A DNA stretch of 64,000 nucleotides, taken from Desulfonatronovibrio magnus. GTDB taxonomy: Bacteria > Desulfobacterota > Desulfovibrionia > Desulfovibrionales > Desulfonatronovibrionaceae. Below, piece after piece: positions 45,808 through 64,000 of the stretch (its first letter is position 1; every line of letters begins with the position of its first letter). Under the pieces are notes generated by a model. The model was not told the origin of the DNA. It searched no databases and saw only the letters and a list, made by a program, of their open reading frames with translations. The position numbers were made by a program, and so were the translations under genes. The stretch spans positions 1-64,000 of the forward strand of contig NZ_JYNP01000030.1 of assembly GCF_000934755.1 (NCBI RefSeq). The letters run 5' to 3'.

Positions 45808-45899
45808 TGCAAGAAAAAAAAGCGTAAAGTTCCCAGCAGATATTTGTTAAATATTAGTAACTTACCGTTTTAATCCTGTAGAAAAAAACAAGAAATTTT

Positions 45900-46107
45900 G
45901 TAATTGTTTAGCCCTTTTCTAAGGAAAGCAGGGGACAGGCACCCCAACCCTTGTTTTTTGTTGATGTAAAACACAGACTTAATAAAACAAGGGCTGGGAG
46001 AGCCAGTCCCCCTCCGGGCTGTATGCCTCCGGGCCACATGCAAATGGCTAAACTATTACAATTATTCTTGTTTAAATTGAGTTGTGGGCACAGCCCGCAT
46101 TAGACTT
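45900..46107 (+). repeat. Family B copy followed by family C hairpin
   Basis: Family B: GTTTAGCCCTTTTC, GGGGACAGGCACCCC, then the core CCCTTGTTTT...AAAACAAGGG (inverted repeat), then GAGCCAGTCCCCCTCCGG, ATGCCTCCGGG and ATGGCTAAACTATTAC. The family C unit TTGTTTAAATTGAGTTGTGG with GCACAGCCCGCATTAG follows (46068-46104). The remainder up to the next gene shows no element. Confidence 0.8.
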
Positions 46108-50465: not shown

Positions 50466-50634
50466 CTTTAGCGTTTTTAGGAAAAGGGGACAGGCACTCC
50501 GCGACCCATTTGAGCATCAATTTGTGCTCAAAATGAATCATTTTATGGGACAAGTGGGTCCCGGAAGAGCCAGTCCCCCTCCGGGCTGTATGCCTCCGGG
50601 CAGGAAGCCATGCCACATTCAAAGCCCTAAACAG
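50466..50634 (+). repeat. Family B repeat
   Basis: GCGTTTTTAGGAAAAGGGGA, CAGGCACTCCGCGACCCA, a core hairpin TTTGAGCA...TGCTCAAA, TGGGTCCCGGAAGAGCCAGT, CCCCCTCCGGGCTGTATGCC, GGAAGCCATGCCACATTC and AAAGCCCTAAAC. Outer and inner arms pair, giving a long hairpin. It lies just before the M29 aminopeptidase gene. Confidence 0.8.
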
Positions 50635-53996: not shown

Positions 53997-54282
53997 CAGG
54001 TGTTTAAAATCCTAACGGGGTCATACCAAGAGAGCTTGAGCAGGTCTGGGTCGCACCCCCAAAATAGCAGTCAATCTCAATGTAAAAAAATGACAATCAA
54101 AATTTGGTACTGGTATAATGCCTGAAAACACAAACATATCAAATAGGCCCTTGGAGCAGGCTGGATGCATCCCTGGTCAGCCGGATGCAGAAACACCGGA
54201 CATTTATGCTTGATCATTAAGGCAGATTTATGCTTCTCACAGGATAAGTTCACAGGCTTTTTTTTAGTAATAGGTAATAGTT

Positions 54283-54458
54283 TAGCCATTTGCATGTGGC
54301 AGGGCTTCCTGCCCGGAGGCATACAGCCCGGAGGGGGACTGGCTCTTCCGGGACTCACTTGTCTCAAAAGTGAGACGTTTAAATCATCGGTTGACCCTCA
54401 AGTGGGGCCCGGAGTGCCTGTCCCCTGCTTTTCTTAAAAAAGGGCTAAACTATTACAA
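54283..54458 (-). repeat. Family B repeat, best-preserved copy
   Basis: The ends are inverted: AGTTTAGCCATTTGCATG and AAAAAAGGGCTAAACT. Inside are GGCTTCCTGCCCGGAGGCAT, GGAGGGGGACTGGCTCTTCC, a core with GTCTCA-AAAG-TGAGAC, and GGGCCCGGAGTGCCTGTCCC. Between 53997 and 54282 no element or gene is supported. Confidence 0.85.
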
Positions 54459-54464
54459 TAATAG

Positions 54465-54800
54465 TTATTCGCCGTACATATCAGTAATAAGTTTCCGTAA
54501 TTGGGCTGCTTTTTCCTCTGATAAATTATCAATTTTTTTTCTCAACCTTTGCTTGCTGATGGTCCGAATCTTGTCAGCATCAATTTCAGCATTTCTGTTT
54601 GCACATTTTGTCTGTATACGCGTTCTCCATAAAGGATGCAGCTTAGAAGTTAATGGGCAGACAACAACAGTATCTAAATATTTGTTCATTTCATCTTGAC
54701 TTACTATGACGACGGGGCGCACTTTTTTGATTTCGCTTCCCAAGGTGGGGTTAAGGTCAGCAACAAATATGTCATATCTTTTAATATTCAAAGTCCTCAT
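54465..54800 (-). CDS. MazF/PemK-type endoribonuclease toxin
   Basis: About 111 residues. YDIFVADLNPTLGSEIKKVR, PVVIVSQDEMNKYLDTVVVC and PLTSKLHPLWRT follow the MazF/PemK fold, and the C-terminus has IDADKIRTISKQRL. Such toxins cut mRNA at short motifs. The partner antitoxin frame (stop at 54781) overlaps the start by about 20 bp but is broken upstream, so the toxin may be silent or held by another antitoxin. The start is uncertain: ATG 54800 has GGAGG directly adjacent, and 54812/54815 are alternatives. Confidence 0.82.
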   Translation of the reverse strand: MRTLNIKRYDIFVADLNPTLGSEIKKVRPVVIVSQDEMNKYLDTVVVCPLTSKLHPLWRTRIQTKCANRNAEIDADKIRTISKQRLRKKIDNLSEEKAAQLRKLITDMYGE

Positions 54801-54918
54801 CCTCCAGGCCATCAAGAAGTGCTATATTAAAATCGTCCCAGTTTTCATTTTCATCAGCCATGCTTTTGTAGGTATCTTCCCAGGAAAGCGTCTTTTCTTC
54901 TTTATTACGAAGAAGTAG
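54781..54918 (-). pseudogene. Truncated MazE-type antitoxin (C-terminal fragment)
   Basis: The tail SWEDTYKSMADENENWDDFN with a following ALLDGLEDEDFEY is typical of the toxin-wrapping acidic end of MazE antitoxins. The AbrB-like DNA-binding half is missing. Upstream of about 54918 the sequence is the reverse complement of a higB fragment, so an open frame reading further (to 55050) is a chimera. No start or promoter of its own is seen. Confidence 0.72.
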
Positions 54919-54921
54919 CTT

Positions 54922-55137
54922 CCTGCGGATGTTGCACCGAGAGCTGATAGAAAGCTTGAATACGTGGATCTGTCCGAACAGCTTGAGGATTTGAAAGTGC
55001 CGCCTGGCAATCTCCTTCATCCACTGTCGGGAAACAGGCAGGGACAGCATGCAATTTCAATCAATGATCAGTGGCGTATCTGTTTTCGTTTTGAAGGTGG
55101 CGATGCGTATGAAGTCGAAGTGTGTGACTACCACTGA
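54922..55137 (+). pseudogene. Truncated HigB-type toxin (5' end missing)
   Basis: Reading without a start codon from 54922, the frame gives LPADVAPRADRKLEYVDL, LEDLKVPPGNLLHPLSGN and ISINDQWRICFRF, ending in VEVCDYH. This is the RelE/HigB pattern from about residue 23 onward. A TAG at 54916 closes the frame. The stop lies 13 bp before the intact higA. The first 20 or so residues are replaced by the mazE fragment on the other strand, so no functional toxin is expected. Confidence 0.8.
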
Positions 55138-55150
55138 GTGAGGTGATGAT

Positions 55151-55465
55151 ATGTCTATTCTTAATACGACCGGTATGCAACGCAAACCCACGCATCCTGG
55201 CGAAATGCTGAGGGAAGATTATCTTCCGGATTATGGACTGACGGTTTCGGGGTTGGCCGAATCTTTGGGTGTCTCTCGTCAGTCAGTTAACGAATTATTA
55301 TGCGAACGTCGTGCTGTTAGCCCTGAAATGGCGCTCCGGCTTGCTCGCTTGTTTGGTAACTCGCCCGAATTCTGGCTGAATGCGCAGCGGTCTGTTGATC
55401 TCTGGAATGCTGCGAAGTCGGTGAAGGAAGAAGTGGATCGAATCAAGCCGCTACATGCTGCATAA
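55151..55465 (+). CDS. higA: HigA-type antitoxin (XRE family)
   Basis: 104 residues. KPTHPGEMLREDYLPDYGLT followed by the helix-turn-helix VSGLAESLGVSRQSVNELLC and the close FGNSPEFWLNAQ define the HigA/VapI group. ATG has GAGGTGAT upstream. It normally binds HigB and represses its own operon. Here the higB partner is truncated, so the gene is an orphan antitoxin. An attC-like site overlaps the stop codon, as expected for an integron cassette. Confidence 0.9.
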   Translation: MSILNTTGMQRKPTHPGEMLREDYLPDYGLTVSGLAESLGVSRQSVNELLCERRAVSPEMALRLARLFGNSPEFWLNAQRSVDLWNAAKSVKEEVDRIKPLHAA

Positions 55466-55537
55466 CCAAGCCGTACACCGGATGCCAAAACCTCCGCTTC
55501 GCGGCTCCAAACCGGCGCGTGAGCCTGGCGTTATAAG
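55459..55537 (+). repeat. attC-like recombination site after higA
   Basis: GCATAACCAAGCCG at the left and GCCTGGCGTTATAA at the right form the outer inverted arms. Inner arms ACACCGG/CCGGCGCGT and a central CCGCTTCGCGG hairpin complete the layout of an integron attC site of about 79 bp. It overlaps the end of higA. The match to the GTTRRRY core is imperfect (GTTATAA). Confidence 0.6.
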
Positions 55538-55548
55538 AAGAGAGAAAC

Positions 55549-55620
55549 GTGCAAAAAGCAATTGTAGTCGGTGCCAGTTCCGGTATAGGACAAGAGTTGG
55601 CCAGAATATTAGCCGCATGA
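55549..55620 (+). pseudogene. N-terminal fragment of a short-chain dehydrogenase
   Basis: From GTG 55549 the frame reads MQKAIVVGASSGIGQELARI and stops 23 residues in. GASSGIG is the cofactor-binding motif of SDR enzymes. The frame runs directly into the next fragment (a PIN-domain start) and ends there. It begins soon after an attC-like site, consistent with the start of a cassette cut short. Confidence 0.7.
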
Positions 55621-55784
55621 AAATCTATCTGGACAATTGCTGCTTCAATAGGCCGTTCGACGACCAATCCAATATCCGAATTCGTCTTGAGGCGGAAGCG
55701 AAATTACGAGTTCAGGAGGAGATTCGTTCTGGTTCATTTAAGAAATTAGGGCTGGGCTACTCTGCCGCACAGCGGCTTACTTGA
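55617..55784 (+). pseudogene. N-terminal fragment of a PIN-domain protein
   Basis: ATG 55617 begins MKIYLDNCCFNRPFDDQSNI, the N-terminal motif with the first catalytic Asp of a common PIN-domain family, and continues for about 42 matching residues (LEAEAKLRVQEEI). It then changes to unrelated sequence and stops. The remaining acidic residues of the nuclease site are missing. A TTGAACAATGCGCTC segment after the stop (55782-55796) may be half of another attC-like site. Confidence 0.65.
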
Positions 55785-55840
55785 ACAATGCGCTCACTTC
55801 GTTCGGCACGATTATGGAACAAAAAAGCCATATTTTTATA

Positions 55841-55869
55841 TTGACACATTTTCTTCCCCTATCTATTCA
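55841..55869 (+). promoter_or_regulatory. Sigma-70-type promoter of BrnT-like gene, possibly leaderless
   Basis: TTGACA at 55841-55846 and TATTCA at 55864-55869 are separated by 17 bp. The expected transcription start coincides with the ATG at 55876. No ribosome binding site precedes this ATG. Confidence 0.55.
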
Positions 55870-55875
55870 AACCTA

Positions 55876-56187
55876 ATGAGCAAACTTTCTGACTTCGAGT
55901 GGGATTCGAAAAAAAACAAGCAGAACCAGGAAAAACATGGAGTTTCTTTTGCCCTGGCACAGCTTGCTTTTCTGGACACTGATCGTGTTATCCTTGAAGA
56001 CCTTGAACATAGTGAAAATGAAAAACGGTTTTACTGTCTTGGCAGGGTCTCAGACGCGATAATGACGGTTCGGTTTACATACAGAAAGAACAAAATCAGA
56101 ATAATCGGCGCCGGATATTGGCGAAAAGGAAAGAAAATCTATGAAAGAGAAAATCAAATACACAGACGAACCAATGGGGAAAGTTAA
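55876..56187 (+). CDS. BrnT-family toxin
   Basis: 103 residues. FEWDSKKNKQNQEKHGVSFA and RFYCLGRVSDAIMTVRFTYR, then RIIGAGYWRKGKKIYE, match BrnT, a RelE-like ribonuclease toxin (the usual RIISAR is RIIGAG here). The last residues overlap the following antitoxin gene by 47 bp. The pair lies on the + strand in the cassette region. Confidence 0.85.
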   Translation: MSKLSDFEWDSKKNKQNQEKHGVSFALAQLAFLDTDRVILEDLEHSENEKRFYCLGRVSDAIMTVRFTYRKNKIRIIGAGYWRKGKKIYERENQIHRRTNGES

Positions 56188-56440
56188 GGTTATCTCTGAC
56201 TTTCTTCCATCTCCGGAAGAACTTGCTTTAAAAGATGAAACCGTTAAGGTTACAATTGCGCTAAGTAAAACGAGTGTGGACTTTTTTAAGAAAGAGGCAA
56301 AAAAATATAATACACAATATCAAAAAATGATTCGCAGGCTCCTGGATGAGTATACACTGTCCAGCAATAACCATGAAGCCTTAACCAATAAGGATAGAGT
56401 CGACCAGGAAGCCGTGAATATTGGCTCTGGACAGAAATGA
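56141..56440 (+). CDS. BrnA/CopG-like antitoxin
   Basis: 99 residues. The central VKVTIALSKTSVDFFKKEAK with NTQYQKMIRRLLDEYTL is a ribbon-helix-helix unit as in BrnA/CopG antitoxins. It is coupled to the upstream toxin by a 47-bp overlap; AAAGGAAAG precedes the ATG. A structured repeat overlaps its 3' end. Confidence 0.8.
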   Translation: MKEKIKYTDEPMGKVKVISDFLPSPEELALKDETVKVTIALSKTSVDFFKKEAKKYNTQYQKMIRRLLDEYTLSSNNHEALTNKDRVDQEAVNIGSGQK

Positions 56441-56461
56441 GCATGGTCGAGCTCTATCCAT
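56383..56461 (+). repeat. Structured repeat, copy 1 (second copy at 59324)
   Basis: GGATAGAGTCGACCA pairs with TGGTCGAGCTCTATCC across the element (one bulge), and AGCC/GGCT pairs inside. The second copy at 59324-59403 shares most bases. Both lie at or just after the 3' end of a cassette-type toxin-antitoxin gene. The core does not fit a normal attC. Confidence 0.65.
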
Positions 56462-56536
56462 AAGTTCATAAAGCCCGGTGTGCCTGGCAGAGAGTAGGGG
56501 GGGAAGCTTTTTTGAGGATTGTTGCTGGAGGGAGTA

Positions 56537-56755
56537 ATTGAATCAATTATAGAAAAAACCAAAAAAAATAAAGCAATTAGTATGAGGATGTCAGCCTTTG
56601 ACCTTGAATTGCTAAAACAAAAAGCACAGCGAGAAGGAATGCCGTACCAGACTTTATTGAACACTATAGTTCATAAGTATGTCACCAATCAATTAGTAGA
56701 TAAGAACGAAGTAATAAAAACAATCACAATGATGAAGGAAAATGAGGCAATTTAA
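56537..56755 (+). pseudogene. 5'-truncated copy of a small antitoxin gene (full copy at 63547)
   Basis: From ATTGAATCAATTATAG onward the sequence is nearly identical to 63634-63852 and encodes the same MRMSAFDLELLKQKAQREGM and following YQTLLNTIVHKYV. The first 29 or so residues of the full copy are replaced by unrelated sequence, and no toxin gene precedes it. An in-frame ATG-less start (TTG 56522) could still express the helix-turn-helix part. Confidence 0.75.
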
Positions 56756-56811
56756 CAATGGGCTCCAAGGGACGCTCCGCTTCGCTACGCCCCTGAGCTC
56801 AGGCGTTAGTG
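56750..56811 (+). repeat. attC-like recombination site
   Basis: ATTTAACAATGGGCTCCAAG at the left pairs with CTGAGCTCAGGCGTTAGTG at the right, around a central CGCTCCGCTTCGCTACGC. The left arm overlaps the stop codon of the truncated antitoxin. This is the clearest attC-like site here: TTTAAC and GCGTTAG outer boxes with extra bases in one arm. Confidence 0.7.
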
Positions 56812-56868
56812 ATGAGCGACAATTATAATCCCCCCCTGACGACAATAATTTTTTTCTCTGCTGATGAA

Positions 56869-56897
56869 TCGTGGCACCCACTTCGTTCGTGCCACGA
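56869..56897. other. Perfect 9-bp-arm hairpin
   Basis: TCGTGGCAC and GTGCCACGA flank CCACTTCGTTC. There is no T-run after it, so a terminator is not well supported; it may be the remnant of an attC centre. Confidence 0.5.
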
Positions 56898-56921
56898 GTA
56901 TCTGAGAAGTGCGAATTGGAC

Positions 56922-56969
56922 TTGACTAATCACATGCAGTGACGTATATTTAGAATAGATACGTCACTG
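56922..56969 (+). promoter_or_regulatory. Promoter with overlapping palindromic operator
   Basis: TTGACT (56922-56927) and TATATT (56945-56950) are 17 bp apart. Over the -10 region lies a perfect inverted repeat, CAGTGACGTAT (56937-56947) and ATACGTCACTG (56959-56969), with an 11-bp spacer. This fits an operator for the antitoxin encoded 11 bp downstream, whose ribosome binding site GGAGGG begins at the last operator base. Confidence 0.75.
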
Positions 56970-56979
56970 GAGGGCCGAT

Positions 56980-57234
56980 ATGGATACAAAGCTTACGCTT
57001 AGGCTGGACAAGGAAACAATTGAGAGAGTGAAAATTTACGCTTCAAAGCAGAAAAAGTCTCTAAGTAAGTTAACTGAAGAGCTGTATAAGTCATTCCTGA
57101 TGAGGAGTAATGATGATTGTCAATCAGAAATTCGCTCACCAATTGCAAAAAAGTATAAAGGTATTATTAGCAATACTGATTTTGATGCTGAATTCCATAA
57201 ATTGACTTACTTAAGGGATAAGCACCTACCATGA
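56980..57234 (+). CDS. DUF6364/ribbon-helix-helix antitoxin
   Basis: 84 residues. DTKLTLRLDKETIERVKIYA and KQKKSLSKLTEELYKSFL are the DNA-binding unit of DUF6364-type antitoxins that pair with PIN toxins. The C-terminal 35 residues probably cover the toxin. Start codon overlaps nothing; GGAGGG precedes it. The stop overlaps the PIN gene start by 4 bp. A palindromic operator lies over its promoter. Confidence 0.85.
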   Translation: MDTKLTLRLDKETIERVKIYASKQKKSLSKLTEELYKSFLMRSNDDCQSEIRSPIAKKYKGIISNTDFDAEFHKLTYLRDKHLP

Positions 57235-57650
57235 TCAAAGCATACATTGATTGCAATATCCTGCTTGATTGGCTTCTAGACAGGGAGCCGTTCTCATCTT
57301 ATTCTGCGAAAATTATTGAATTAATCGAAACTCGAAAGATCATTGGTCTTGTTTCACCGCTTACATTGGCGAATACATATTATGTAATTTCGAAAGATTT
57401 GAACAAAAAGATAGCCAATGAATTTATCCATGATAGTTTACGTATCTTTTCAGTGCCGGGGGTATCTCTAAAAAATGTTAAAGAAGCGATTGCAAATAAG
57501 TTTAAAGATTTCGAGGATGATATACATAGTTCCATTGCTGCTGAAAATAATGTGGATTTTCTCATAACCAGGAATAAAAAAGACTTTAAGACCGATAAAT
57601 TCAAAATATTGGATGCAGAAGAGTTTCTGCGAATAATTGAAACAAAATAG
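57231..57650 (+). CDS. PIN-domain (VapC-like) toxin
   Basis: 139 residues. The acidic active site of a PIN nuclease is present: IDCNILLDWLLDREPF at the N-terminus, a middle acidic residue near DFEDDIHSSIA, and FLITRNKKDF near the end, the pattern of PF13470-type PIN proteins. It overlaps the antitoxin by 4 bp and should be an RNase held in check by it. Both genes appear complete. Confidence 0.85.
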   Translation: MIKAYIDCNILLDWLLDREPFSSYSAKIIELIETRKIIGLVSPLTLANTYYVISKDLNKKIANEFIHDSLRIFSVPGVSLKNVKEAIANKFKDFEDDIHSSIAAENNVDFLITRNKKDFKTDKFKILDAEEFLRIIETK

Positions 57651-57657
57651 TATGAAG

Positions 57658-58068
57658 AATTAAAAGTTTCTGGATCAGCGTAAATCAGCGCAATCAGCGT
57701 CAAAAAATTCTTATTCTTTGTCTTTTCTTTGCCTTTAATGCTTAAGAATGAAGCCATAAGAATCTTTGACGCTGATCTCGCAGATAGACGCAGATAAAGG
57801 TTTTTGTGTCATTGTGTCATGGGGTGTCATGTGTCATGGGGTCGGACCTAACCAAGTTATTGAACTAATTGAGTAAAGGGTCTCTACAGGGCCAAAAAAT
57901 TACCTTAGGATGCCTTTTTTGGGGCCAAAAACATAGATGTAAGCGTATATACCCGGGCGTCCCGGGACCAAACTGATAAGTAACTTAAATCCCTCGTTCC
58001 CAGGCTGGTGCCTGGGAACAAGAGCAAATGAAGCATCGAACCCGCGATGCCAAAAGAAAGGAAACGAG
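57658..58068. repeat. Repeat-rich gap, including a segment duplicated at the window end
   Basis: CAGCGTAAATCAGCGCAATC and GACGCTGATCTCGCAGATAG form a loose inverted pair (57676-57795). From 57831 to 57942 the sequence GTGTCATGGGGTCGGACC...ACATAGATGTAA is nearly identical to 63884-63995. Next come a family A module fragment (57951-57986) and a GTTCCCAGGCTGGTGCCTGG hairpin (57996-58019). No gene is seen. Confidence 0.75.
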
Positions 58069-58467
58069 ATGATCGCGAACACACTGCCCCCCTGCATTGT
58101 AACCGAGAAGGTTGAGGAATCTCGCGAGTTCTACGTGAAGCACTTTGGCGCCAAGGTGACGTTTGACTGCGGCTGGTACGTGAACATGCAGATCGGGAAG
58201 GAGACATCCGAGCTTCAGTTCATGGCGCCGCGGGCGCCTGGTCCCCCGACGTGCAACCCGGCCGGGCTGATGTACAACTTCTCGGTCGATGACGTGGATG
58301 CTGAGCATGTCCGCCTTACGGCAGCCGGTCTCTCCCCGATTATGCCGCTGGAAGACCATCCTTGGGGAGATCGTGGCTTCGCGATTCTCGACCCGAACGG
58401 AGTTATACTGTCCATCTTCTCTCCCCGTGAACCAGCGGAGGAATTCAAGCAATACGTCAGGGACTGA
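58069..58467 (+). CDS. VOC (glyoxalase/bleomycin resistance) family protein
   Basis: 132 residues, one VOC domain. CIVTEKVEESREFYVKHFGA, YNFSVDDVDAEHVRLTAAGL and WGDRGFAILDPNGVILSIF follow the paired beta-alpha-beta pattern. Members bind a metal and act on small electrophiles or sequester antibiotics; the substrate is unknown. Base composition is clearly richer in G+C than in neighbouring genes. The stop codon opens an attC-like palindrome, so this looks like a foreign integron cassette. ATG has AAAGGAAA upstream. Confidence 0.87.
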   Translation: MIANTLPPCIVTEKVEESREFYVKHFGAKVTFDCGWYVNMQIGKETSELQFMAPRAPGPPTCNPAGLMYNFSVDDVDAEHVRLTAAGLSPIMPLEDHPWGDRGFAILDPNGVILSIFSPREPAEEFKQYVRD

Positions 58468-58534
58468 GGAACCGCACAAGAGGCTGGTGGGTACGCTCGC
58501 AAGCTCGCGCCTCACAGCCCCGACGTTAACACTA
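58466..58534 (+). repeat. attC-like palindrome after the VOC gene
   Basis: GAGGCTGGTGGG and CCTCACAGCCCC are inverted arms around CGCTCGCAAGCTCGCG, and CGACGTTAAC closes the right side. It overlaps the TGA. The layout matches an attC; the GTTRRRY box is imperfect. From 58535 to 58670 nothing else is supported. Confidence 0.55.
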
Positions 58535-58670
58535 ACATACCCATTTTATGGAATGGAAAAGGTAATAGAGGAAGTAAACGCAAGCTGCGGGGGCTAATTC
58601 TATCAGCTGAATGTTTGAGATCAGATCGAAACTAAGAAGATGGTTTTAATCCGAAAAATAGGAGGCTCAA

Positions 58671-58910
58671 ATGTCAACCATATTAACTTTAGAAATTCCA
58701 GATCAAATTTATCGACCTTTACTAAAAAAGGCTGATAAATGTGGAAAAACTATCGACCAGTTATTGATTGAATGGATGGAAGATGTAGTAAAGGATGAGT
58801 TGGATGATCCTTTATTAAAAATGGCAGGGGCTTTTTCTTCTGATATCAAAGATATCAGCTCAAATCATGACTTTTATGTCGGACAAGAATTGAGGAATGC
58901 CCATGAATGA
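58671..58910 (+). CDS. Small antitoxin of a VapBC-like pair
   Basis: 79 residues. STILTLEIPDQIYRPLLKKA with KTIDQLLIEWMEDVV looks like a small helix-rich DNA-binding antitoxin, followed by an acidic tail. Its stop overlaps the PIN gene start by 8 bp. AGGAGG lies 6-7 bases before the ATG. Family not named with certainty. Confidence 0.75.
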   Translation: MSTILTLEIPDQIYRPLLKKADKCGKTIDQLLIEWMEDVVKDELDDPLLKMAGAFSSDIKDISSNHDFYVGQELRNAHE

Positions 58911-59319
58911 GGTTTTCGCTGATACCTCTGGTTGGGCCAATTATTTTGTCCAAACTGAGTCGTTTCATAAAGATGCCAAAGGGTTGATGCAGCAATGGTA
59001 CAAAGATCAAACCCGTGTCATAACAACAAATTATATCCTTTCGGAGCTTGTCGCCTTGTTCATAAGTCCGCTCAGAATACCGCGTCCGCAGCAAATCCAG
59101 GCGATTGAGACAATCAAGACTGTTGGTTGGATCGAAATCATCCATATTGACAAGCAGTTAAATGATAAAACTTGGCAATTTATTAAGGAACGAGATGATA
59201 AAATGTGGAGTTTGGTTGACTGCTCAAGCTTTGTTGTCATGAAAGAGCGTCAACTCAGTCATGGATTTACGACGGATCATCATTTTGAGCAAGCTGGATT
59301 TGTAAGATTATTGAAGTAG
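58903..59319 (+). CDS. PIN-domain (VapC-like) toxin
   Basis: 138 residues. EVFADTSGWANYFVQTE carries the first catalytic Asp, YILSELVALFI the Glu, and DKMWSLVDCSSFVVMKE with GFTTDHHFEQAGF the later acidic residues. The motif set is intact, so an active RNase toxin is likely. It overlaps its antitoxin by 8 bp; ATG 58897 is an alternative start. Confidence 0.87.
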   Translation: MNEVFADTSGWANYFVQTESFHKDAKGLMQQWYKDQTRVITTNYILSELVALFISPLRIPRPQQIQAIETIKTVGWIEIIHIDKQLNDKTWQFIKERDDKMWSLVDCSSFVVMKERQLSHGFTTDHHFEQAGFVRLLK

Positions 59320-59323
59320 TAAT

Positions 59324-59403
59324 CAACCAAAAAGGATAGAGTCGACCAGAATAGCCGTGAATGGTGGCTGATAGCAAGAGATGAGCATGGTCTATTTCTA
59401 TCC
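59324..59403 (+). repeat. Structured repeat, copy 2
   Basis: AACCAAAAAGGATAGAGTCG, ACCAGAATAGCCGTGAATGG and ATGAGCATGGTCTATTTC match the element at 56383-56461. It follows the PIN gene stop by 5 bp. Positions 59404-59489 show no gene. Confidence 0.65.
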
Positions 59404-59489
59404 ACTGTTTCCATTTTTGAAACAGTTCAACAGGAAGCTTCTCGTCAGCAGCGGCAGGAATGAGTTGAATCTGTACAGCAGGAGAGATT

Positions 59490-59913
59490 ATGCAAAGAAG
59501 AGTTTTTATCAGCATGATCGGCGCTTTTTTTTGGGGCGCTGGTATTTGGAGGGAAAGTTCCAGAGGTAAAAGCCAGGGTTATTCCCAAGCCTGTATCTCT
59601 AGTCCAATGCCATGTGGCAGGATTTCAGTACTATCAGGGGCCTATGGTATTTTCTGATCTTCAATCCGGCCAAAAATTAAAATTATTACGCGAGCCTAAC
59701 AACCCCCACGACAGCAAAGCCATTGCCGTATTCACCTCAAACGGCCACAAGCTGGGATATGTGCCCAGGACTCACAACCCGCTTCCTGCTGATCTCATGG
59801 ATAATGGACACAAGCTCACAGCCAGTTTGCTTTCAGTTTCTTCGGATATGGGAGAATTTAGCTGCCTGAAGATGGGGGTTTTTGTGAATGGCGGTGGCTG
59901 GCAGGGGTTGTGA
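59490..59913 (+). pseudogene. HIRAN-domain protein, frameshifted in its signal region
   Basis: ATG 59490 opens MQRRVFISMIGAFF, which looks like a signal peptide. A T8G4 run at 59525-59536 then puts the frame out by one base. In the shifted frame it continues ALVFGGKVPEVKARVIPKPV and CHVAGFQYYQG, LKLLREPNNPHDSKAIAVF, GHKLGYVPRTHNPLPADL to 59913, a complete HIRAN domain. HIRAN domains bind DNA ends in other proteins; exported stand-alone forms have unknown function. One base less in the T-run would restore the gene, so sequencing error or slippage are both possible. Confidence 0.72.
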
Positions 59914-60190
59914 TTTTTCGGGGTCGATTGTTAAATTTTGTAGGCAGGAAAAAAGGGAAACCTTCCATGAAAAAACTTTCCAAAACACCGGCACTGGGGT
60001 CCAAAGTTGTTTTTGCGGCATTTACTGGTCGGAAACAAAAGTGGACGGCTCAACTATAAATGGCCTGATTAATGGAAAAAATTACTTAGATATGATTTTT
60101 GAAAAGGTGAACATTACATTATAGCTGAACTGTCCATAAAATATTCGTTAAGAATCTGGTAACCATGGTCCATCTGGGAGAGCAGGGTAA
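59914..60190 (+). other. Unassigned stretch after the HIRAN gene
   Basis: A short frame from ATG 59967 (about 30 residues, MKKLSKTPALGSKVVFAAFT) is the only candidate and has no recognisable match. The rest shows no element that I can support. Confidence 0.3.
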
Positions 60191-60379
60191 ACGCTCATCA
60201 CGTCCAATAACCAGCCCATAGCTGACGAGATCGAAATCCCGGTGGACAGGATCATTGATATGAAGAAAAACAGCCAGGATACCTCAGACCTGGAAAACCG
60301 CATCGACCAGCTCGTTTACCAGCTCTATTCTCTGACCCCGGAAGAAATTGAGGTGGTGGAAGGTTCAGATCAAAATTGA
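60191..60379 (+). pseudogene. C-terminal tail of a restriction-modification protein
   Basis: The frame without a start codon reads ADEIEIPVDRIIDMKKNSQD and LENRIDQLVYQLYSLTPEEI, ending VVEGSDQN. This is the helical tail that ends many type II/IIG methylase-specificity proteins (DxLVYxLYxLTxEEIxxVEG). Nothing else of such a gene remains. A second copy of the very end lies at 62565-62621. Confidence 0.7.
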
Positions 60380-60633
60380 TACGAAAGCATAAAAAACATC
60401 CTTTATCCAGTCTGGGTTATAGTATTGAGGATGAAATATGACATCCCGCACGTTTCCGGCTGATTTAGGGAATAATCAGGAACCAAGACGTTTTTTTGAT
60501 CTTTTCTTGCTTGTGTTTCAGGTAAGAAAGTGGTTATCTGCCCCGAAAGCGAAGCCATTATCGGTTATTGCTACTCAATTTTATTTTAATTTTGCACAGT
60601 ACATGATTCAAAAACAATCTTCCATTAAGTTGA

Positions 60634-61152
60634 GTTAAAGCCGCTAATCTCCGGAAAGTATTCGATTTTATAGAAAGCGGTACTTGGATCGTTCTTTTTG
60701 ATGAGTTCGACATCATCGGCAAGAACCGGGACGACAGCCACGAACATGGGGAGATAAAAAGAGTCGTCAACAATTTCCTCCAGATGCTGGACAACATCAA
60801 GGGTGACAGTCTTATCCTGGCGGCAACCAATCACCAGTACATGCTTGATCCGGCGATCTGGCGGCGCTTTGACGATGTTATTTACTACGAACTTCCTGAT
60901 GACGATATCAGAAAAGCATTGTTTGAACTCTACCTGAGGCCGATCAAAACAGATCCTGATATCGACTTCCTAAAAGCCGTGACTTTGACACAAGGGCTCT
61001 CGCCTGCTGATATAAAAATGATAACCGAAGAAGCCATGAAATTGTCTATTCTTGATTCAAGGCCTTGTCTTTCACAAGGCGACATCGAGGCAGCCATCCA
61101 TAAATTCATCCGCCGTGAAAAGGTCAAGAATAACCAGATGGGAGATCGATAA
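60634..61152 (+). pseudogene. AAA ATPase, 5'-truncated (IetA-like)
   Basis: The open frame from just after TGA 60631 gives LRKVFDFIESGTWIVLFDEF (Walker B), EIKRVVNNFLQML, LILAATNHQYMLDPAIWRRF (sensor 1 and arginine finger) and the C-terminal lid. The Walker A half is absent and the sequence before 60634 is unrelated. ATG 60784 would give a shorter, inactive piece. The stop overlaps the following protease start by one base (TAATG), as in AAA-subtilase pairs. Confidence 0.8.
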
Positions 61153-62486
61153 TGGACAAACATGACCATCTGCGACTGCCAGTATACAGCGATAATGTTG
61201 AACGTCAGAAAAAAGGCGGTTTCGGCGTTTACAGTTTACCGGAGGGGAGGGGAAAATCGGCGTTTTCTCAAGCAGCCAGGAAAAAAGCGGAAACAATCTC
61301 TCAATCATTTGCCGCATTAAAGAAAAAATTCGCCGGTCGGATTACCCCGTCCTTAATCTATGAAATCGAAATCAACCAGAGTGTGTCGCCGGATGCTTTT
61401 GAGAATACACTAGCATCCATGGGAATCCATGTCCTTTCTGTCGCGGAAAACAGAAAAGGCTTCTGGGTTGTTTTCAGCGATGACGAGACACTGGCGGAAT
61501 TTAAAATAAAGCTCGCAACATACGGTAGTGAAGATGGCCCCAAATATGACTTTTTTAATGCTATCGACTCCTTTCAGGACATTCCCAGAGAGAAAAAAAT
61601 CGGCAAGGGATTGTATGATAGCCATGGAACGATAACTGAGGACAGAGGAGGCAAAATCCCCCTTCTCAATAATCGGACAACAGAAGACATCATCCAATAC
61701 GATTGCGGTACCAGCTTTGCCGCTCCCAAGGTCGCATATCTTGCCGGGAAGATAGCCAATCACTTTCCACAAGGGTCTGGTAACTTTATTAAAAACATGT
61801 TGCTCATCGGGGCGGACTATCCAGCCAAGCCAAGCAAGGACTTTTATCAGACCGACAAACCTCGAGACGCCGACAAAGCCCACCTGGCAGTTTGCGGTTA
61901 TGGCGTGAGCAGCTTCGAAAGAGCCGTGAATTCATTTGGCAACAGAGTAGTGCTTTGGGATGAAGGGTGGATTGGGCTGAACCATGTGCGGGTTTATTCC
62001 TTGAATCTGCCCGATATTTTCTTTTCCGAGCCAGGCAGGAAGAGAATAATCGTTACCCTCACCTTTAATCCTGAGACACGGCTGACCCGTGGTGACAGCT
62101 ATCTGGGAAATCGAATGGAATTTCATGTGTTCCATTCAATCAACCCGCAATCACTGATTGAAAAATACGGCGTTATTAACGAACAGGCGGAACAGGCAGG
62201 GGTTCCTGAGGGTTTGAGGAAGTATAAAATTGACTTCTTTCCCGGCAGCAACACAAGAAAAGCCGGTTGTCATCAAAAGGCGTGGAAGGAGTATAAGCGA
62301 GAACCCAAAGATAGACCAGCGCCTCCGGTTTCACTTGTTCTTCTGAATTTCAACAAGTGGATTACAGATGAAACAAGGTTGCAGGACTACTGCATTTCTG
62401 TAACTTTTGAACATGAGAAAGAAAATCGTTTATACGCCCAAATAAGAAATTGTATACAAGCACGGGTTCGTATTGAGACTGTATAG
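61152..62486 (+). CDS. Subtilisin-like (S8) protease, internally deleted (IetS-like)
   Basis: 444 residues, far below the 650-750 usual for AAA-associated S8 proteases. An N-terminal domain runs to about residue 155 (DFFNAIDSFQDIPREKKIGK). The frame then jumps to TEDRGGKIPLLNNRTTEDII and CGTSFAAPKVAYLAGKIANH, which carries the catalytic Ser region, and a normal C-terminal domain. The part that should hold the catalytic Asp and His (the HGTxVAG box) is missing, so proteolysis is not expected. Together with the truncated ATPase it is a decayed IetAS-type module, a pair linked to phage defence and plasmid stability. Confidence 0.78.
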   Translation: MDKHDHLRLPVYSDNVERQKKGGFGVYSLPEGRGKSAFSQAARKKAETISQSFAALKKKFAGRITPSLIYEIEINQSVSPDAFENTLASMGIHVLSVAENRKGFWVVFSDDETLAEFKIKLATYGSEDGPKYDFFNAIDSFQDIPREKKIGKGLYDSHGTITEDRGGKIPLLNNRTTEDIIQYDCGTSFAAPKVAYLAGKIANHFPQGSGNFIKNMLLIGADYPAKPSKDFYQTDKPRDADKAHLAVCGYGVSSFERAVNSFGNRVVLWDEGWIGLNHVRVYSLNLPDIFFSEPGRKRIIVTLTFNPETRLTRGDSYLGNRMEFHVFHSINPQSLIEKYGVINEQAEQAGVPEGLRKYKIDFFPGSNTRKAGCHQKAWKEYKREPKDRPAPPVSLVLLNFNKWITDETRLQDYCISVTFEHEKENRLYAQIRNCIQARVRIETV

Positions 62487-62564
62487 TGTCAACGAACATA
62501 TGGACAAAATCATCTAATCCGCTATTGATAGCAGAAATAGGCTCCTATTGAGTTTTCTCTTTGT

Positions 62565-62621
62565 GTACCGGCCTACGACCTGACTCCGGAAGAAATTGAG
62601 GTGGTGGAAGGACAAAAATGA
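62565..62621 (+). pseudogene. Second copy of restriction-modification tail
   Basis: The frame reads YDLTPEEIEVVEGQK and stops. CCGGAAGAAATTGAGGTGGT is identical to the region at 60338-60357, and the match covers about 30 bp. The two tails flank the AAA-protease pair in the same orientation. Confidence 0.65.
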
Positions 62622-62698
62622 AAATTTTCAGAGCTATTTCATTACAAACCACTTAAAAAAGGTTGATTGACCTGAATTTGATTCAAAAATGCCATCCA

Positions 62699-63190
62699 TC
62701 AGAAATCCAGGGGGCTCCTGGCCTCCTTTCTGGTTTGGCTCTTGACGGTATGGGTGTAAATCATTGTCGATCTGACATCGCTGTGCCCTAAAAGTTCCTG
62801 GATGGTGCAATGTCGTAGTTGGCCTGGAGCAGGTGGCTGGCAAATGAATGGTGGAAGGTATGCGAGGTAATGCGCTTGGGGATCTGAGACTTTTTTACCG
62901 ATTCCCGAATGGCCTTCTGCACATGGGATTCATGAAGGTGGTACCGCTTGCGCTGTCCGGTTTCAGGAACATGGGTCAGATAGGTTGACGGGAAAAACCA
63001 CTGCCAGACTAATTCCCTGGCGCTGTTTTTGTATTTTTTCTCAATACTGTCGAACATGAATACTCCGTCATAGCCAGCCTCCAGATCTCTGGCATTTAAA
63101 GCCTTGACCTGTTCCAATTGTGAATGCAGCCTGGGCATAATATTCTGGGGCAAGGGAACAGTCCGGTCTTTTTTGCCCTTACCGTCGTGG
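62699..63190 (-). pseudogene. intI: Integron integrase IntI, truncated, frameshifted, active-site mutant
   Basis: The minus-strand frame reads HDGKGKKDRTVPLPQNIMPR, YKNSARELVWQWFFPSTYLT and RYHLHESHVQKAIRESVKKS, which include the extra helix region specific to integron integrases. HTFHHSFASHLLQANYDI follows, where the conserved HTLRHSFATHLL Arg is His. A one-base loss near 62806 then shifts the frame; the restored frame gives TIQELLGHSDVRSTMIYTHT with the catalytic Tyr and ends at 62699. The N-terminal half is missing beyond 63190. The enzyme must be inactive. Confidence 0.88.
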
Positions 63191-63245
63191 TTAAATTGAC
63201 AAAAAATAATCAGTCAACGTTCGTCAAAATGTGTTGGCCCATTGA

Positions 63246-63275
63246 TTGACAATGTATATACAGAGGGTTATCATT
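63246..63275 (+). promoter_or_regulatory. Sigma-70-type promoter before BrnT-like gene, possibly leaderless
   Basis: TTGACA (63246-63251) and TATCAT (63270-63275) are 18 bp apart. The expected transcription start falls on the ATG at 63281. The layout repeats that of the promoter at 55841-55869. The site lies where an attI or cassette promoter of the adjacent integrase would be expected. Confidence 0.5.
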
Positions 63276-63280
63276 TACAT

Positions 63281-63550
63281 ATGAATATCTTCTGGGACGA
63301 AGACAAGAATAATTGGTTGAAAGCTGAACGCGGGATATCATTCGAAGAAATTGCTGACCAAATTATTCAGAAGCATTACCTCGACATTATTGAAAACCCT
63401 ACTCGGCCTGATCAATTGTATTTTGTGATGCTAATACGTGATTACACGTGGATTATACCATTTCTGTTGAACGAGGAAGACCAAATAATTTTGAAGACAG
63501 CTTTTAAAAGTCTTAAGTACCATAAGTTGTATGCGGAGGATAAAAAATGA
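63281..63550 (+). CDS. BrnT-like toxin
   Basis: 89 residues from ATG 63281 (an in-frame TTG/ATT region at 63242 would add 13). MNIFWDEDKNNWLKAERGIS with FEEIADQIIQKHYLDI and IILKTAFKSLKYHKLY resembles small BrnT/RelE-like toxins. It overlaps the following antitoxin by 4 bp. It is the first complete cassette-like gene beyond the intI remnant, divergent from it. Confidence 0.75.
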   Translation: MNIFWDEDKNNWLKAERGISFEEIADQIIQKHYLDIIENPTRPDQLYFVMLIRDYTWIIPFLLNEEDQIILKTAFKSLKYHKLYAEDKK

Positions 63551-63852
63551 ATCATAAATTAACTAGCGAAGAGCAAATCATAGAAGATAATCTCGACAAT
63601 TTTAAAAGTGTATCTGATGAAAAGCGCAGCCACATTGAATCAATTATAGAAACAACCAAAAAAAATAAAGCAATTAGTATGAGGATGTCAGCCTTTGACC
63701 TTGAATTGCTAAAACAAAAAGCACAGCGAGAAGGAATGCCGTACCAGACTTTATTGAACACTATAGTTCATAAGTATGTCACCAATCAATTAGTAGATAA
63801 GAACGAAGTAATAAAAACAATCACAATGATGAAGGAAAATGAGGCAATTTAA
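63547..63852 (+). CDS. Ribbon-helix-helix antitoxin, full-length copy
   Basis: 101 residues. An acidic N-terminal arm (about 30 residues) leads to SMRMSAFDLELLKQKAQREG and MPYQTLLNTIVHKYV, a CopG/BrnA-like DNA-binding unit. ATGA overlap couples it to the toxin. The last 73 residues are repeated almost exactly at 56537-56755. Confidence 0.82.
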   Translation: MNHKLTSEEQIIEDNLDNFKSVSDEKRSHIESIIETTKKNKAISMRMSAFDLELLKQKAQREGMPYQTLLNTIVHKYVTNQLVDKNEVIKTITMMKENEAI

Positions 63853-64000
63853 CGCTTGGGCTCCAAGGGTGTCATGGGGTAGGGTGTCATGGGGTCGGAC
63901 CTAACCAAGTTATTGAACTAATTGAGTAAAGGGTCTCTACAGGGCCAAAAAATTACCTTAGGATGCCTTTTTTGGGGCCAAAAACATAGATGTAACCATA
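63845..64000 (+). repeat. Half attC-like site joined to a duplicated segment
   Basis: ATTTAACGCTTGGGCTCCAA (63847-63866) is the left arm of the attC-like site found after the other antitoxin copy. After AAGGG the sequence changes to GTGTCATGGGGT repeats and then (63884-63995) to the segment also present at 57831-57942. The right attC arm is missing. Confidence 0.75.

Follow-up and report, generated by a model that had tools for sequence, protein, structure and literature searches.

We analyzed a 64,000-nucleotide stretch of Desulfonatronovibrio magnus DNA, hereafter the window, which comprises bases 1-64000 of contig C8 (77,158 nt; coordinates above 64000 refer to C8) in a draft genome (G000) of 4.81 Mb in 134 contigs that is 97.5% complete. 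The part of C8 at about 54.9-68.6 kb is quite probably a decayed chromosomal integron, eroded in part by an IS91-type element that inserts in attC. The first-pass annotation of this DNA had read a decayed integron with toxin-antitoxin cassettes, and that reading stands, except that two gene-end palindromes it took for attC, at 56383 and 59325, are end hairpins of the IS91-type element. The cluster is an integrase-dead, toxin-antitoxin-rich cluster of attC sites lacking integron integrases (CALIN), and as such of an ordinary kind. It appears to be made up of plus-strand cassettes, mostly toxin-antitoxin pairs, with few surviving attC and the C-terminal half of one integrase gene, intI.

The intI remnant and the BrnT-like plus-strand cassette that follows it (BrnT/BrnA no. 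2, below) were both annotated at first pass, and both are borne out. The remnant covers the C-terminal half of the gene in two frames, with the N-terminus missing:

62698-63189, minus: intI remnant (TIGR02249, integron integrase)
62806-63189, minus: first frame, TIGR02249 model positions 153-280, 135 bits
62705-62806, minus: second frame, TIGR02249 model positions 281-313, 33 bits

It lies inside the cluster with attC sites to both sides, and against the full intI of an order-level relative (G018) it shows 78% DNA identity over 493 bp, ending at 63189. The 5' half of intI is absent from C8, and an intact intI with the IntI patch, as in a complete integron, is not found: the draft genome gives 28 TIGR02249 matches, none over the family cut-off and all of them remnants. 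N-terminal intI fragments lie on contigs C72 and C73, inside two 98%-identical copies of one 639-bp stretch, and a genus-mate (G001) has a full intI. Right where the homology stops, the plus strand reads GTTAAAT (63190-63196), which fits the GTTRRRY core that starts a cassette; the corresponding sequence in G018 is AATGGTC. This junction was spotted post hoc, and the chance of a 7-mer fitting GTTRRRY is about 1/1,000. Judged from the sequence, a deletion made by IntI may possibly have removed the 5' half of its own gene together with attI.

For attC, we built a covariance model (R1) from 17 attC of five other genomes with complete intI, five of the sites coming from G001. The training sites were chosen by eye, for their layout, strand and location next to a full intI, from regular-expression and folding scans; they represent a single order, and R1 misses distant attC. 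On C8, the regular-expression scan gave no more matches than in shuffled sequence and was dropped for the covariance model, which replaced its folding version as well. The sites of the cluster are as follows:

55460-55536, plus: attC, R1 37.0 bits, E 2.4e-6 in 81 kb; 5' end overlaps the higA stop codon
56750-56811, plus: attC, R1 35.1 bits, E 6.5e-6 in 81 kb; 5' end overlaps the stop of a truncated brnA
58471-58531, plus: decayed attC, 3 nt past the stop of a VOC (glyoxalase-fold) gene, R1 9.2 bits, E 1 in 9.6 kb with filters off
63847-63869, plus: 5' half of an attC behind BrnT/BrnA no. 2, severed by a REP-transposase element; read directly, without a model match
67671-67751 (C8, beyond the window), plus: attC, R1 43.8 bits, strong
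68436-68559 (C8, beyond the window), plus: attC, R1 15.4 bits, E 0.3, weak

Several L''/L' pairs are broken in the site at 55460, and the half site at 63847-63869 resembles the beginning of the attC at 56750. Beyond the four R1 sites (55460, 56750, 67671 and 68436) there is no R1 match at E<=10 in the window and the right part of C8 (L009). Control DNA is silent as well: positions 1-54000 of the window have no match at E<=10, and 13 other loci, 113,701 bases in all, have no match at E<=1. No Rfam model exceeds its gathering score in the window, and C8 63.9-71.9 kb gives nothing except one unrelated sub-threshold match. A CALIN is defined by at least two attC within about 4 kb and no intI, and the sites at 55460 and 56750 are 1.2 kb apart. 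The layout of an integron cassette, with attC directly behind the gene on the same strand, is seen for higA and the truncated brnA, and in decayed form after the VOC gene. Both outcomes named at first pass as grounds for rejecting the integron reading are therefore absent: attC matches exist, and cassettes continue past 64000 (attC at 67671 and, weakly, at 68436), so that the window boundary falls inside the cluster, whose last attC match ends at 68559. The early description of attC-like palindromes overlapping stop codons applies at 55460 (higA) and 56750 (the brnA fragment) and not at 56383 and 59325; likewise, the left flank does hold toxin-antitoxin genes with attC but is not a clean array, as 54400-64000 contains just two R1 sites with E<1 plus the decayed one.

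Elsewhere in the draft genome, at least nine other attC of at least 20 bits on R1 lie on C73 (three), C72 (one), C34 (two), C1 (two) and C126 (one); the genome scan scored 150/892 candidates, and the C1 and C126 sites surfaced later. The sites on C34, C1 and C126 resemble the attG insertions of cassettes reportedly described by Loot et al. in 2024, in that cassettes are scattered over the genome. A MazEF cassette on C72 (PF02452, PF04014) shares 97% identity over 831 bp with DNA of G001, and since that genome has a full intI, at least one cassette is shared in the genus with a complete integron.

The two palindromes, at 56383-56466 and 59325-59409, have GGATAGAGTCGACCAG in common and belong to an element whose other end is also found in the window:

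55749-55783, plus: what remains of the start, or far end, of the IS91-type element, then AACAATGCGC; it carries AGCGGCTTACTTGAACAA exactly, in common with C8 67662-67679
56386-56537, plus: end hairpin of the IS91-type element together with its arm, after CCTTAAC; 104 bits on R2 (which includes this copy); DNA fold z -4.25
59328-59409, plus: end hairpin of the IS91-type element, after AATCAAC, 5 nt past a PIN stop; 89 bits on R2 (which includes this copy); z -1.29

R2 is a model of the end hairpin that includes the flank of its 12 seeds. Three other identities were considered for the palindromes and rejected: attC, since they are absent from the R1 matches at E<=10 with filters off; an ordinary dispersed repeat, on position and neighbors; and the ends of REP-type (Y1) transposase elements, since the elements of this type in the array (57836, 63889 and C8 68726) have other ends. 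Hairpins related to these are found in the genus and the family, and two more families of the order have them with different stem sequences (13/297 genomes sampled). R1 attC are present at 12/26 hairpin loci (14 matches, 12 of them distinct, all on the same strand as the hairpin), compared with no R1 match in the 113,701 control bases. In an alignment of 12 sequences taken from order-level relatives as well as Nitrospirae and deltaproteobacterial records, both partners change in 2/7 pairs of the outer stem, and 98.8% of cells are paired.

An intact copy of the element lies on C8 just outside the window:

65222-67674: intact IS91-type element, ending in the hairpin
65569-66666, minus: IS91 transposase, NF033538 362 bits (cut-off 125), with Y2_Tnp and Zn_Tnp_IS91 domains
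66670-67542, minus: tyrosine recombinase of 290 aa, preceding the transposase

By its transposase, which is over the curated cut-off, the element falls in the IS91 family. The recombinase is not an IntI: its 182 bits on the integron-integrase model are under the cut-off (265), the IntI patch is absent, and it falls in a clade apart from IntI (support 97/94). At E<=1e-60 the transposase is found in G000 alone among G000 and 60 relatives, some of which keep fragments. At the same threshold an IS91 transposase is found in 2/247 class-level genomes, and in the second of these, too, a recombinase-like gene lies upstream, as judged by eye. At one locus with an IS91 transposase and, by eye, a recombinase-like gene upstream (L156, G068:C72), the flanking long inverted repeats resemble attC, and they have no R1 match. 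A scan of genome contigs gave 21 transposase loci, 14 of which have both genes and a readable end. These 14 two-gene loci come from Desulfobacterota and other proteobacterial metagenome-assembled genomes (MAGs), Nitrospirae, Kiritimatiellae, Planctomycetota and Ca. Argoarchaeum; four are from Pontiella sulfatireligans (Kiritimatiellae), whose strain F21 has at least four copies, and two (L140 and L150) have broken genes. Phage records gave no recombinase match at E<=1e-40. Judged by sequence, an IS91-type element with an IntI-like recombinase sits in attC in more than one phylum.

Read in the orientation of the transposase, the element starts with an exact GTTCAAGTAAGCC in 11/14 of these loci and with one mismatch to it in L146; in L137 and L147 this start is not found. 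The end is typically CTTGAACAATGGATT-hairpin-AATCCTTATTG, followed by the host GTT, with other hairpins in Pontiella and L147. GTT follows the end in 14/14, the end having been fixed at GTT by the analyst, and it also begins the element, so that a 3-bp duplication is possible at insertion. Members of the IS91 family transpose by a one-ended rolling-circle process at a fixed tetramer, without target duplication. GTTCAAG, at the start, is the reverse complement of the hairpin foot CTTGAAC, which is present in 5/5 of L135, L136 and L138-L140, with CATGAAC or similar elsewhere.

Read on the cassette strand, the host junction is AAC preceded by RYYY-like bases, which resembles the R'' box of attC (RYYYAAC). 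AAC occurs at 33/40 distinct junctions, and the preceding bases fit RYYY in at least three of four positions in 26/33 (25.8% of 3,713 background AACs) and in all four in 11/33 (4.9% of background), though the AAC counts are partly circular because R2 includes the 12 seed flanks and the ends of the 14 loci were fixed at GTT. A second test, on gene ends, is free of this circularity: an open frame of at least 75 codons on the same strand stops within -27 to +57 nt of 28/40 junctions, compared with 16.5% of the 3,713 background AACs. For the 14 two-gene loci, 11/14 follow the stop of a same-strand open reading frame (background 16%, binomial 5e-7) and 6/14 have an exact RYYYAAC (background 5%, binomial 3e-5).

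If the element interrupts attC, the rest of the site would be expected past its far end. In C8 this is the case, with the attC at 67671-67751 (43.8 bits). In G035 the remainder can be read as a stem, with GCCTCAATGCAGCCGAC pairing with its complement, which 0.8% of background equals, and in the short forms at L101 and L112 an R1 match lies directly past the element. Taken together, of 21 far-end junctions picked by the analyst, 8 have a stem that surpasses those at 95% of the 4,273 background AACs (binomial 4e-6). Orientation is consistent as well: around the 21 transposase loci there are 19 R1 matches at E<=3, of which 17 are opposite to the transposase (10 loci vs 2), with six of the 19 coming from one array (L143) and several being weak or distant from the element. 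Finally, in a Desulfobacterales MAG (L139), an array that has a full-length intI (417.7 bits) carries the element behind the stop of its second cassette. These observations suggest that attC is a preferred target and not a mere hot spot, and that the element would insert at the R'' core (RYYYAAC) in the orientation opposite to the cassettes. Gene stops would then come to be followed by whole copies, by copies with internal deletions or by end hairpins alone, and these may be mistaken for attC.

Several results weigh against this reading. At 13/21 far ends no significant attC body is seen, including 55783, for which no attC partner was found, and L139; the set itself was chosen by the analyst, and the G035 site has no R1 match. 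No R1 attC is found at 14/26 hairpin loci. In the f1 hairpin set, compensatory change supports 0/18 pairs, and the outer-stem covariation depends on two pairs only. Lastly, plasmids of Rhizobium johnstonii, Dinoroseobacter and Herpetosiphon carry this gene pair too, with no R1 match, which argues that attC is not the sole target and that insertion in attC is at most a habit of this branch. A separate result bears on the function of the attC themselves. As single-stranded DNA, those of the window fold no better than shuffles (55460, z -0.30; 56750, z -0.75; the decayed site at 58471, z 0.63), and they are thus probably weak or dead; the sites at 67671 and 68436 fold mildly better than shuffles (z -1.92 and -1.94).

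Part of this would fit an element without attC preference, which inserts at any GTT and for which attC arrays, being single-stranded, non-essential and tolerant at gene ends, serve passively as a hot spot. Tetramers of the GTTC/CTTG type are where IS91 elements insert, members of this family are found outside known integrons, and 13/21 far ends show no significant attC body. We nonetheless consider it unlikely, in view of the excess of exact RYYYAAC (6/14 vs 5%) and of reading-frame stops (11/14 vs 16%) at the two-gene loci, the shared strand of 12/12 distinct attC near hairpins, and the 17/19 R1 matches opposite to the transposase (10 loci vs 2). The junction counts among these statistics are set against background AACs.

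It is also conceivable that the end hairpins are a divergent class of attC that the IS91-type body only adjoins. They occupy attC positions, their feet read AAC/GTT, and one arm often contains an additional base; in G012 the arm of the element follows an attC-model match in place of the hairpin; and the element start GTTCAAG complements the hairpin foot. However, the attC model does not recognize the hairpins even with filters off, hairpin and attC-model match stand in tandem at L092 and L112, most of the 14 two-gene loci end in such a hairpin, and the extra base is inconstant, which makes this explanation quite improbable. That there is no integron at all, only a toxin-antitoxin island built by transposition with chance attC-like hairpins, was already disfavored and is very improbable: the few attC, the poor folding of the two in the window and the many transposase remnants would suit it, but R1, trained outside, matches here and not in control DNA, an intI remnant is present, and an attC-bearing cassette is common to a genus-mate with intI.

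If the decayed-integron reading with insertion in attC is right, the process can be sketched. Without an intact intI, the cassettes would probably be maintained by their own promoters and toxin-antitoxin addiction, as established knowledge suggests, and would erode. The Y2 transposase would copy the element by rolling circle. A tentative and rather doubtful proposal goes further: the element may be a transposon formatted as a gene cassette, in which Y2 copies a single-stranded DNA ring and the IntI-like recombinase, the candidate DNA-joining enzyme, pastes it into R'' of a host attC. Since the GTTCAAG start is complementary to CTTGAAC at the hairpin foot, such a ring would have an attC-like site of four boxes. 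The IntI patch reads the polarity of attC; insertion at R'' by a recombinase without the patch would be the reverse of IntI action at R'. If true, this would be a rolling-circle transposon with integron-type recombination as its paste step, acting on integrons from Desulfobacterota to Kiritimatiellota, and an IntI-like enzyme working on attC without the patch would bear on the reading of polarity and on the origin of the patch. Integrase-dead attC clusters are common, and to our knowledge little is known of how they decay. An element that enters attC would freeze or dismantle arrays and pass for attC on visual inspection, and it could make counts of cassettes less reliable.

The cluster has a close counterpart in the CALIN of Halorhodospira halochloris, which is described as having five toxin-antitoxin systems (PMC7923331), three of them BrnT/A, with an insertion sequence (IS) beside it and no intI in the genome. 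The two are alike in having an attC cluster without intact intI, toxin-antitoxin systems that include BrnT/A, and an IS; unlike it, C8 has an intI remnant inside the cluster and an IS91-type element in attC. Elements that target attC are known from the IS1111-attC group (PMC11187229). That group has a DEDD transposase, whereas the element here has a Y2 (HUH) transposase, with Y2_Tnp and Zn_Tnp_IS91 domains, and a tyrosine recombinase, and so does not belong to it. Group II introns of class C-attC also lie in attC and mostly run against the cassettes (PMC9229058), and so share site and orientation with the element, which is, however, protein-coding DNA; no intron ribozyme in attC is found in the window or C8 63.9-71.9 kb. 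For Shewanella integrons, the same paper describes no IS interrupting attC, and one IS91-like element, ISShvi3, that adjoins one attC in a new gene cassette structure. ISShvi3 resembles the element here in being IS91-like and beside attC, and differs, by its description, in being a single case with no target rule. This one remark is the nearest precedent for IS91 at attC in the literature searched: the titles and abstract openings of the open-licence papers listed contain no description of IS91 elements targeting attC, and neither do the IS91 passages of PMC8876359, PMC9229058 and PMC9345347.

The small plus-strand genes listed at first pass are confirmed (HigBA, BrnTA, DUF6364/PIN, VOC, an antitoxin-like reading frame without a family match with PIN, and HIRAN). 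From left to right, the cassette genes are as follows:

leftmost of the cluster, minus: MazF-like gene
54964-55465, plus: 5'-truncated higB (PF05015 positions 36-91) and higA (PF01381; named by its partner) cassette
55876-56440, plus: BrnT/BrnA no. 1 (PF04365 E 5e-23), with brnA reading into the element end hairpin
56980-57650, plus: DUF6364/PIN toxin-antitoxin pair (PF19891, PF13470)
between the preceding and following pairs: VOC gene
58671-59319, plus: antitoxin-like reading frame without family and PIN (PF01850, at cut-off)
63242-63852, plus: BrnT/BrnA no. 2, whole (PF04365 E 3e-4, below cut-off; PF12441 E 6e-7)

The brnA fragment with the attC at 56750 lies within a 220-nt stretch identical to the end of BrnT/BrnA no. 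2. A HIRAN gene and then a broken IetAS-like pair come between the antitoxin-like/PIN pair and the intI remnant. To the right of the intI remnant follow, in order, BrnT/BrnA no. 2, a REP-type (Y1) transposase, DUF4258/MqsA-like genes (the MqsA-like match is below its cut-off) and the IS91-type element; right of the latter lie ribbon-helix-helix/MazF-like genes, a helix-turn-helix (HigA-like) gene, a second HIRAN gene and another antitoxin-like reading frame/PIN pair. The scrambling remarked on at first pass stems in part from the IS91-type element, REP-type (Y1) elements, duplications and truncations. The 5' parts of the REP-type (Y1) element are repeated at 57836-57954, 63889-64000 and C8 68726-68903, and one copy interrupts the attC behind BrnT/BrnA no. 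2.

Cassettes elsewhere in the genome include an arsenite methyltransferase (NF008823, 380 bits) on C73 (positions 2738-3625 of L051), with a strong attC (57.2 bits) beside a truncated intI. On C34 (positions 9517-11193 of L052) two cassettes with two attC encode a DNA-alkylation-repair enzyme (PF08713) and an HNH endonuclease (PF01844), and that contig has no IntI match.

The two HIRAN genes inside the cluster (59490-59913 and C8 69564-69986) have similar leaders by eye, and PADLOC PDC-M03B is matched by the first of them in its C-terminal part (E 4e-16). Remains of an IetAS anti-phage pair (C-terminal parts of an AAA ATPase and a subtilase) lie at 60784-62486 (PADLOC IetA E 2e-25, IetS E 3e-30), and type III restriction-modification genes (mod, res; C8 71916-76814) border the cluster on its right. 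Long dispersed repeats around GGGGACTGGCTCTTCC, mutually inverted and up to 97% alike, occur at 45887-46072, 50485-50632 and 54274-54469, and pieces resembling them are also present on contigs C2 and C4.

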